Part shown: positions 1,930-24,177 of the stretch, piece after piece
Layout: each line of letters begins with the position of its first letter
Numbering within the stretch: position 1 is the stretch's first letter
Assembly: GCF_032050975.1 (NCBI RefSeq)
Contig: NZ_CP116967.1
Span: forward strand, 2,725,001 to 2,789,000
DNA: 64,000 nt
Source of the DNA: Candidatus Nitrospira allomarina
Lineage (GTDB): Bacteria > Nitrospirota > Nitrospiria > Nitrospirales > UBA8639
Reading direction: 5' to 3'
The notes under the pieces: model-generated
What the model was told of the DNA's origin: nothing
Database searches by the model: none
Seen by the model: the letters and a program-made list of their open reading frames with translations, nothing else
Position numbers and translations under genes: made by a program

Positions 1930-2095
1930 ACATATGCGGAATGAATGATGGGAAGCAGGTGCAATTCCCGCGCGGTCCCGCCGCTGTAACTGAGGACGAA
2001 CCCGCGAAAGCCACTGTCCGGATCTGGTCGTGATATTCGGATGGGAAGGCGCGGATAGTAGGTTACTCACTCAGGAGCCAGAATACCTCATTCGT
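1930..2095 (+). promoter_or_regulatory. Cobalamin riboswitch upstream of btuFCD
   Basis: The conserved adenosylcobalamin-aptamer blocks occur in order: GGGAAGCAGGTGCAA with TCCCG from about 1950, GGTCCCGCCGCTGTAAC up to 1990, GCCACTG at 2010-2016, GGGAAGGC at 2043-2050, and the B12 box CAGGAGCCAGAATACC at about 2072-2087. The btuF start lies about 50 bases downstream, so ligand binding could mask its ribosome-binding region or terminate transcription. Boundaries are approximate. Confidence 0.92.
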
Positions 2096-5279: not shown

Positions 5280-5349
5280 GCGAGTGGACCATTATCGTGT
5301 GTTGTGTGTGGGTATCGGTATTAACCATTTAATAAAGGAGTAGGGTATT

Positions 5350-5512
5350 TAGAGGAAAAACGACGGTTGTGACGGGGAAGCTGGTGTAAGTCCAGCACGG
5401 TGCCGCCACTGTAAGCGGGGAGTAATTCTGCAAGAGTCCATTGTGGAGATGGTGTCCATGAGAAGGCGCAGAAACGCGATGATCCGCAAGTCAGGATACC
5501 CGACAATCAGTC
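5350..5512 (+). promoter_or_regulatory. Cobalamin riboswitch upstream of the btuB-cobalamin assembly operon
   Basis: Aptamer blocks are visible in order: GACGGGGAAGCTGGTGTAAGTCC from about 5371, GGTGCCGCCACTGTAAGCGGGG from about 5399, GAGAAGGCGC near 5460-5470, and the B12-box-like AAGTCAGGATACC at about 5488-5500. It ends about 28 bases before the GGGAGGTG ribosome-binding site of btuB. It should repress btuB and the following biosynthetic genes when adenosylcobalamin is plentiful. Confidence 0.92.
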
Positions 5513-5551
5513 ACTTCCATAAGACCCCTTCGTGCGAAAGGGAGGTGGATC

Positions 5552-21590: not shown

Positions 21591-24116
21591 TCAAGAGTTC
21601 TTTAATCCTGCCTGCCAAGTGGCAAGGGCCAATAATGGGAAGTAGTGGGAGTACAAATGGTATTTCAAATAGAAAACGTTAGGGAATCCGGTTCCTGTCA
21701 TGAGTTCCTCGTCCCACTCTCCTTGCTGATTCTGATTGGTGAGCAGCCAGTCGATTCCACGATGAACGGGTTTTGAGGTTCGATCGCCAGCCGCTTCAAG
21801 TGCAAGTAAGGCCCAGGCTGTTTGTGAAGGTGTGCTTGAGGCTGGAACGAATTCCTGCTTTTCATAGCTGGCACAGCTTTCCCCCCAACCGCCATCCTGA
21901 TTTTGGATTGAGCGCACCCAGGTGGCAGCACGCTGGATTGCGGCGTTTGCAGTCGGGGAGCCACTTGCGCGAAGGCCACGCACGGCGAGGAATGTCCCAT
22001 AGGTATAATTTACGCCCCAGCGTCCATCCCAACTCCCGTTGGGTTGTTGATGGCCCAAAAGAAATTGGACGGCACGCGCGATTGCCGGGTGTTGGTATGT
22101 GTAATCACGCCGACAGAGTGCCTCTAACACCCGCCCCGTTATATCAGGGCAGCTGGGATCAAGCATGGCATTGTGGTCTGCGAATGGGACCTTATTCAGT
22201 AAGGCCCAATTATTATCCACATCAAAGGCAGCCCAACCCCCGTCTGAGGATTGCATCCCTAATAACCAGTTGATGGCACGACCTTCGGCGCGGGTCTGCC
22301 GGTCGGGATCAGAGGCCTTGGCATGCTGTAGGGCCAACAAGACCATGGCGGTATCGTCGATGTCCGGGTAGAGTTCATTCGCAAATTGGAAAGGCCATCC
22401 TCCAGGCTGCAAATCCGGTCGCTTGACCGACCAGTCTCCTTTGCGGCGAATCTCTTTGCTCAATAACCAATCGGCTGCCCGCTGCATGGCTTGCGGTTCA
22501 CCGACACCGAGTTCTCCTAATGCAAACATTGAAATAGCGGTATCCCATACCGGGGACAAGCTGGGCTGAAACTGCAGAGCATCTTCCTTCTCAAGAATGA
22601 GCCCTTCAAGCTGGCCAAGTGTGTCAATGAAGTCCGGGTGGTCCCGCTCATAACCCAGAGCATCCATCGCCATGAGGGCATACATCATTCCTGGAAAAAT
22701 CGCTCCCAATCCATCCGTGAACCGCATGTGATCTAACATCCACTTCTCCGCTTCGCGTATCGCTTTGGCCCGAACATCCTTAAAGCCCCGCTTTTCCCAG
22801 AGTTTCAAGATCTTGTCTACCTGATGAAACAGGAGAGAAAAGGGATCTTTTTTGGGGAGTCTCAGTTTTCGATTGGGCACCATGAGTTCGTCAACGGTCC
22901 AATTTCCTGGCACTGTGTGTTGTACTCCGGACGCTTGAAGAATGGAGAGGGGGACGACGATGGCCCGACTCCACGATGAAATTTCATACAAGACATTTCC
23001 AGGGATAAGGACGAGTTCAGGTGGAACACTCGGTGTGTACTTTCTTGGGAAGAGACCAAACATGCTCAGGTTATTCTTCGTGTAGCTATTGGTGGCTTGA
23101 AGACCTCCAAGGGCAAGAATGCGTTCACGCGCACGTTGCATAAGCGGTTGGTCGGGATCATAGCCCCCAACTCGAAGCGCCACATATGCACGGGTCGTGG
23201 CGTTTACTTCGGCCGGTCCTTCCGTATAAATGTTCCATCCACCATCTGAAAGTTGCCGGTCAAGGATGGTGCGGATGGCTTCCTTGACTTTGGTCTGAAT
23301 TCTTGGCTCCCACACACCGTTCTCTGGTGGATAGAGCCAGAGTAAAAGTAATACGTAGTCGGATTCCAATGTGGTGTCGGCGGTTAAATCGCCCTGCCAA
23401 AACCCTCGCGGATTTTGTTTCGCCAGTAGTGCACGCGCAGAAGTTTGGGTGGGTTGGTAGGCTTGGCGTTCGAGTTCCTCCACATGTGACTTAAAGGAAG
23501 CCAATTCCGCGAAGGCGTCATTAGGCGGTGTGGGTATGGTGGTTGCGGACGTGTCTCTCATGGGTTCTCCTGATTGTGTGTGAGATTGGATCTCCAAAAC
23601 AAATGTGGCTCGTTGCTCGCGCGTGGGAGGCGCTAATCCTAATGCCTCGCTGAACCAGAGCCCTTCGACAGCCAGCCGCCCTAGAAGGGAACGAGTCGGA
23701 TCAACGGTATTGGCCAGAAAAATGCTCTGCCAATTTTGATACCGCTCTCGAATGGGCTCGAGTAGATGGGGGTTGATGGAAAAAGCTGCCATGAGAATGG
23801 AGGCAATTTCTTCTCCTCGAAGGGACCGATTATGGACGGGATTGTCGACAATCTCATGGCCAAGAGCCATGCCGGGATGCTCCTCATGAATGGAGCTAGT
23901 GAGAAATTCTCCAACCTGTTTGCGTTCCAAATCCTGTATGAGTAACTCTATGAGCCCCGCGAGTAACTGTTCCTTACCCTCAAAATGATAGAGTAAGCCG
24001 CCTTTGCTGATACCGGCTTCTCTAGCGACATGCTCGAGTGTCAAACCACTGACCCCGTTTCGTCCCAACAGGTCTATGGCGGTCTCAAGGATCAAATAGC
24101 GTGTTGAAGTTAGCAT
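21591..24116 (-). CDS. shc: TetR-type regulator fused in frame to squalene-hopene cyclase
   Basis: One 841-residue frame. Residues 1-185 are a TetR-family regulator: helix-turn-helix LTLEHVAREAGISKGGLLYHF (about 24-44) and a helical ligand domain. Residues 186-841 are a complete squalene-hopene cyclase of normal length, with the catalytic DIDDTA (585-590) and QW repeats such as QSSDGGWAAFDVDNNW and QNQDGGWGES. The cyclase folds squalene into hopene, the hopanoid precursor, at the membrane. No stop separates the parts. An internal ATG at 23561 (residue 186, MRDTSATT) has AGGAG five bases upstream, so the cyclase could also be made alone. The first ATG has no Shine-Dalgarno but is preceded immediately by in-frame stops. 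A fusion of regulator and enzyme is unusual; see findings. Confidence 0.9.
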   Translation of the reverse strand: MLTSTRYLILETAIDLLGRNGVSGLTLEHVAREAGISKGGLLYHFEGKEQLLAGLIELLIQDLERKQVGEFLTSSIHEEHPGMALGHEIVDNPVHNRSLRGEEIASILMAAFSINPHLLEPIRERYQNWQSIFLANTVDPTRSLLGRLAVEGLWFSEALGLAPPTREQRATFVLEIQSHTQSGEPMRDTSATTIPTPPNDAFAELASFKSHVEELERQAYQPTQTSARALLAKQNPRGFWQGDLTADTTLESDYVLLLLWLYPPENGVWEPRIQTKVKEAIRTILDRQLSDGGWNIYTEGPAEVNATTRAYVALRVGGYDPDQPLMQRARERILALGGLQATNSYTKNNLSMFGLFPRKYTPSVPPELVLIPGNVLYEISSWSRAIVVPLSILQASGVQHTVPGNWTVDELMVPNRKLRLPKKDPFSLLFHQVDKILKLWEKRGFKDVRAKAIREAEKWMLDHMRFTDGLGAIFPGMMYALMAMDALGYERDHPDFIDTLGQLEGLILEKEDALQFQPSLSPVWDTAISMFALGELGVGEPQAMQRAADWLLSKEIRRKGDWSVKRPDLQPGGWPFQFANELYPDIDDTAMVLLALQHAKASDPDRQTRAEGRAINWLLGMQSSDGGWAAFDVDNNWALLNKVPFADHNAMLDPSCPDITGRVLEALCRRDYTYQHPAIARAVQFLLGHQQPNGSWDGRWGVNYTYGTFLAVRGLRASGSPTANAAIQRAATWVRSIQNQDGGWGESCASYEKQEFVPASSTPSQTAWALLALEAAGDRTSKPVHRGIDWLLTNQNQQGEWDEELMTGTGFPNVFYLKYHLYSHYFPLLALATWQAGLKNS

Positions 24117-24142
24117 GGATTATTACTGTGGATTATTACTGT
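24117..24142. repeat. Tandem 13-bp direct repeat before the TetR-cyclase start codon
   Basis: GGATTATTACTGT occurs twice head to tail (24117-24129 and 24130-24142), directly abutting the start codon of the minus-strand TetR-cyclase gene. It occupies the place where a Shine-Dalgarno would be expected. It could be an operator or a recent duplication. Confidence 0.7.
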
Positions 24143-24177
24143 ACCGTCTGGCTGGTTTAGTTTCAATCGAAAATTTT

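Follow-up and report, generated by a model that had tools for sequence, protein, structure and literature searches.

The gene discussed here raises a simple question: why should a transcriptional repressor and a lipid-forming enzyme share one polypeptide? It lies in a 64,000-nucleotide stretch of the Candidatus Nitrospira allomarina genome (the window), in which a regulator of the TetR family runs without interruption into a squalene-hopene cyclase (SHC). Hopanoids are cholesterol-like membrane lipids, and to our knowledge little is understood of how bacteria set their levels. Among the hits of open-access literature searches there was no description of a TetR regulator joined to an SHC, or of TetR control of hopanoids, and an earlier one is possible. 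The reading that we favour with reasonable confidence is that the gene encodes an autorepressing enzyme, with a TetR part acting on its own promoter and a C-terminal cyclase, which would have arisen from a coupled gene pair and then been transferred.

The fused frame and its carriers

The fused tetR-shc gene (21591..24116, minus strand) is a single open frame of 841 codons with no stop. An earlier note on this DNA had described it as TetR joined to a full-length cyclase, and the re-read frame, Pfam and NCBIfam agree. The domain order in the 841-residue product is TetR_N (9-53), TetR_C_28 (102-173), SQHop_cyclase_N (225-511) and SQHop_cyclase_C (520-835), all four scoring above the Pfam gathering cut-offs. 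In the full-length structure model the cyclase is confident and the helix-turn-helix (HTH) has a pLDDT of about 85.

The uninterrupted fusion is found in 18 genomes, most of them metagenome-assembled (MAGs), comprising 16 Nitrospirales, which belong to a group of nitrite oxidisers, and two Bryobacterales from soil (Acidobacteriota). Closed genomes of cultured Nitrospirales strains are also available (PMC10579370). Within the genus the gene is carried by 13 of 21 genomes, that of the window included and with some copies cut by contig ends, and it is also present in one species of another genus; several of the 8/21 genus genomes without it are incomplete. No further kind of carrier appeared among 396 genomes sampled across the phylum. 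Scanning 84,980 species genomes brought to light two more Nitrospirales MAGs and, as a surprise, two Bryobacterales MAGs of the same architecture. The Bryobacterales fusions (about 60-61% identical) come from 2 of 257 genomes of that order, with no others. The fusion sits at different genomic locations in different clades, and comparison of these neighbourhoods revealed no conserved gene partners.

Across the 18 genomes and two phyla, identity ranges from 60 to 98% and indels are in frame. A stop between the two domains in relatives, which the earlier note had held would speak against the fusion, occurs in 0/18 carriers and was seen only in distant unfused tetR-shc pairs. A frameshift introduced by sequencing or assembly, or a recent fusion in a single strain, is hardly conceivable: the sister arrangement of overlapping genes does differ by just a small frame change, but the frame is free of stops in 18 genomes of two phyla from several assembly projects, and both domains are under purifying selection. 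The relatives refute an artefact or single-strain mutation, and the fused frame is genuine.

Elsewhere in the window, two cobalamin riboswitches (5330-5521 and 1950-2087, plus strand; Rfam) adjoin genes resembling those of a TonB receptor and of BtuF, within a cluster for uptake and late synthesis of corrinoids.

The cyclase part

The SHC domain (residues 225-835; 21612..23444, minus strand) is recognised by Pfam, NCBIfam and Foldseek. With the SHC equivalog TIGR01507 (cut-off 431) it scores 610 bits, and its model matches the Alicyclobacillus acidocaldarius enzyme (1SQC) with a target-normalised TM-score of 0.93. The catalytic motif DIDDTA, which the earlier note had rightly placed at residues 585-590 (22347..22364, minus strand), aligns to D374-D376-D377 of the Alicyclobacillus SHC. 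Like 1SQC, the fused enzyme has a complete fold, the DXDDTA acids (D585, D587, D588) and the active-site aromatics (W382, W524, F576, W700, F811, F815, Y819, Y822). Pairwise omega is 0.024-0.065, so that at about 0.05 the cyclase is under strong purifying selection.

Unlike the fused enzyme, 1SQC lacks an N-terminal regulator, and the two also differ by H451R, Y420F, E45D and changes at the E93, R127 and Q262 positions. We considered altered catalysis through H451R, R127N and the like and rejected it, as most of these substitutions are common to the housekeeping SHC of Nitrospirota or to ordinary acidobacterial SHCs; this residue comparison with other SHCs gave no sign of a new product.

The fused enzyme is a second paralogue and not the main hopanoid cyclase, because another cyclase lies inside the hopanoid (hpn) cluster. 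This housekeeping copy, which in Nitrospirota is 46% identical to the fused cyclase, sits in the window's genome among genes that, from reading their sequences rather than from a family search, we take to be hpnG-, mla-, dxs-, ispG- and hpnH-like; most relatives examined likewise carry a cyclase inside an hpn cluster. Two members of the genus possess a third cyclase of 38-40% identity (G010:C49:108038-109867 and G007:C70:19837-21633), located in G010 near the housekeeping SHC. A different enzyme join was noticed in a family-level relative, where a 1146-residue ORF (L201:663-4103, G033:C16) combines an FAD monooxygenase resembling squalene epoxidase (Pfam SE and FAD_binding_3) with an oxidosqualene-cyclase-like protein bearing a DCTAE motif and scoring 737 bits for TIGR03463, below the cut-off of 851. 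It is possibly a one-chain epoxidase-cyclase of bacterial sterol synthesis, and a similar long ORF is present in L202 (G023:C22).

The TetR part

Residues 1-185 (23562..24116, minus strand) comprise, by Pfam and the model, an HTH, ligand-binding helices and two C-terminal helices of the dimer type. Since both TetR_N (49.2 bits, cut-off 24) and TetR_C_28 (63.4 bits, cut-off 26.4) score above threshold, this is a complete TetR regulator and not a DNA-binding domain alone. Modelled by itself it reaches a pLDDT of 79.5, and its closest structural match is CgmR (2yve; Z 13.5, rmsd 3.5, 156 aligned residues, VIA-align), followed by SaFadR. With CgmR and other TetR/AcrR multidrug repressors it has in common the TetR_N fold, complete ligand-binding helices and a palindromic candidate operator at its own promoter; those proteins are free-standing, whereas here the chain runs on into an enzyme.

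The TetR_N HTH (residues 9-53; 23958..24092, minus strand), delimited by Pfam, alignments and omega, contains a nearly invariant recognition stretch, SKGGLLYH. Its pairwise omega of 0.03-0.07, against 0.11-0.28 for the ligand-binding part, shows it to be under strong purifying selection, as constrained as the cyclase. In Acidobacteriota, several tetR genes of this subfamily (L162, L166-L169), with a similar operator, stand upstream of membrane-fusion/efflux-like genes, and their position suggests that the regulator originally controlled efflux and was later recruited.

Candidate operator and promoter

Just upstream of the first ATG of every fused or paired gene lies a palindrome, CTATACCG-N6-CGGTATAG, which is degraded in the window. 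Its GACGGTA half-site is present in 26/26 upstream regions (those of fused, paired and related efflux-type tetR genes), in most of them at a distance of 5-13 nt from the first ATG, and it usually completes the palindrome. Pairing is 8/8 in L012, L013 and L074, where 0-1 of 500 shuffles did equally well. The window's version, an imperfect 22-bp palindrome CTAAACCA-gccaga-CGGTACAG (24139..24160, minus strand), keeps the right half conserved upstream of all 26 genes; the left half is degraded here and in close relatives to 5 of 8 pairs, or to fewer than in the region's best chance palindrome, so binding could be weak in this clade. Upstream of the fusions in L004 and L014 the right half of the operator is tandemly repeated.

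By sequence match, the candidate operator forms the spacer of a sigma-70-like promoter, TTGAAA-N17-TACAGT (24138..24166, minus strand). The -35-like match averages 4.3/6 over 25 loci, versus 2.5 in shuffles; a promoter consensus scan by itself found 3 where 2.7 were expected and is thus not evidence alone. In most loci 6-8 nt separate the end of the -10 hexamer from the ATG, and the mRNA is therefore likely leaderless or nearly so. The earlier note had pointed out that the first ATG has no Shine-Dalgarno, as is indeed the case, and a leaderless mRNA would account for this. In the window the stretch from -10 to ATG is 21 nt, lengthened by a 13-bp tandem duplication read from the sequence (ACAGTAATAATCC twice, between operator and ATG; 24117..24142, minus strand) that was not seen in the relatives compared, most of which have 6-8 nt there. 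The -10 of the two Bryobacterales fusions lies just 1 nt before the ATG, leaving their promoter or start assignment uncertain.

The palindrome at the gene's own promoter is the probable binding site of the TetR part. One might argue from the degraded left half-site in the window's clade that the TetR part has given up DNA binding and now serves the enzyme as a dimerisation or regulatory domain; we find this very improbable, given an HTH as constrained as the enzyme and the conservation of the right half-site and its spacing. The exact operator pattern occurs once in the window's genome, at the fusion gene, and genus-wide upstream of fusion genes and in one other place (G004). We found no second recognisable operator in the window's genome, where one-mismatch matches are at control level, and a distal regulon was rejected on these grounds. 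The same distribution bears on a reading in which a lipid or drug is the signal for the TetR part, other genes are its targets and the cyclase is a passenger. Efflux-type genes are indeed preceded by related TetRs that share the operator motif, and the best structural matches include a multidrug repressor (CgmR) and an acyl-CoA regulator (SaFadR), but the near-exclusive siting of the exact pattern at the fusion, together with the intact catalytic residues and low omega of the cyclase, makes such a role improbable.

The junction and the internal start

Residues 174-201 (23514..23597, minus strand) have a pLDDT below 50 in the full model and are therefore read as a flexible tether between the TetR part and the cyclase. 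Pairwise omega, mostly 0.2-0.6 in this linker, is nowhere higher in the gene. Within it lie the internal ATG of Met186 (23559..23561, minus strand) and the internal Shine-Dalgarno AGGAG (23567..23571, minus strand), both found where the earlier note had put them, at 23561 and five bases upstream. Met186 is homologous to the starts (MRE, MRD, MKE and others) of unfused cyclases (L082, L105, L191-L193, L106-L108). In all 11 analysed fusions that keep it, AGGA stands invariant five bases before its codon. As background, in the same 11 fusions 6/183 conserved fourfold codons are identical in all, as is 1 of 49 conserved glycine codons, namely the one in AGGA; the residue neighbouring the AGGA varies, yet its codon always ends in A. 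Conservation of the internal Shine-Dalgarno extends to the nucleotide level, and because so few synonymous sites are invariant, the internal start is probably used in these fusions, giving a free cyclase.

In one clade (L012, L013 and L015, the last on an incomplete contig) ACA or ACG stands in place of the Met186 codon, and the sequence near the junction offered no start preceded by a well-spaced Shine-Dalgarno. With both elements lost, the fused form alone is expected there. The proposal of the earlier note that the locus could give both fused and free cyclase thus gains from the conserved Shine-Dalgarno in most carriers and does not extend to these three species.

Judged by sequence comparison, the cyclase ancestrally started at the internal ATG, since unfused acidobacterial pairs begin their cyclase there. 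Read in the +1 frame, the window's gene still meets a stop at the junction ATGA, a remnant of the earlier overlap. Ancestry and nucleotide-level conservation of AGGA-N5-ATG would both suit a gene that works chiefly through the free cyclase, the fused frame being a by-product of the old overlap and the TetR needing no fusion. We consider this unlikely, though less so than the alternatives weighed above: the three species without the internal ATG and Shine-Dalgarno keep the fusion, and no stop between the domains has been regained in 18 genomes of two phyla.

Origin of the fusion

In four other acidobacteria tetR and shc are separate, overlapping genes, by the common 4-nt ATGA in L105 and by overlapping stop and start codons in L163, L164 and L165. 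These pairs have homologous parts and the same operator as the fusion, and differ from it in making two proteins instead of one; they look ancestral. In the tree the fused cyclase is nested inside acidobacterial cyclases, apart from the other Nitrospirota cyclase, and for this reason the fused gene was probably transferred from Acidobacteriota to Nitrospirales. That the fusion arose once is favoured, but with weak support (56/53 for TetR and 79/76 for the cyclase). A clade made up of all fused and paired cyclases, without stand-alone ones, was rejected (p-AU 1e-7), and the regulator has therefore been lost or gained more than once.

Proposed mechanism and significance

Under the autorepression that we favour, the TetR part would dimerise as TetR proteins do and bind the palindrome between -35 and -10 of its own promoter, lowering transcription, while the C-terminal cyclase, at the membrane, would turn squalene into hopene or a related triterpene. 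With the two parts covalently linked, repression would be tied to the amount of enzyme, and possibly also to ligand or membrane state, so that hopanoid synthesis would report to its own promoter. From the same mRNA the internal Shine-Dalgarno and ATG would also yield free cyclase in most carriers, with the fused form alone in one clade. The history envisaged begins in Acidobacteriota with a translationally coupled, overlapping tetR-shc pair under the same operator, which would have lost the frame difference at the overlap before horizontal transfer to Nitrospirales. A further step, which we put forward tentatively and would not bet on, is that the protein is a trigger enzyme: engagement of substrate or membrane would pull TetR off the operator, and the internal start would supply non-regulatory enzyme.

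The closest functional precedent, by analogy, would be the trifunctional proline utilisation A protein (PutA), an autogenous repressor and membrane enzyme that moves between DNA and membrane (PMC5293562). In both, a single chain begins with a DNA-binding domain and also holds a membrane-associated enzyme, and PutA represses its own regulon much as the fusion has, on the evidence of sequence, a candidate operator at its own promoter. PutA consists, however, of a ribbon-helix-helix and a flavoenzyme. Pfam finds neither the ribbon-helix-helix nor the proline catabolic domains in the fusion; as TetR and a terpene cyclase replace them, it is not a PutA by its parts and at most works like one.

A monotopic membrane enzyme appears here joined to a DNA-binding domain, as in PutA from entirely different parts, and the locus would illustrate how two overlapping genes, one for a regulator and one for an enzyme, can merge to encode one autoregulated protein and then pass from phylum to phylum. 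It also offers a compact, testable hypothesis for hopanoid control, with one gene, one palindrome, one promoter and unfused ancestors for comparison. If the trigger-enzyme reading is true, the enzyme would itself be the cell's gauge of squalene or of membrane demand.
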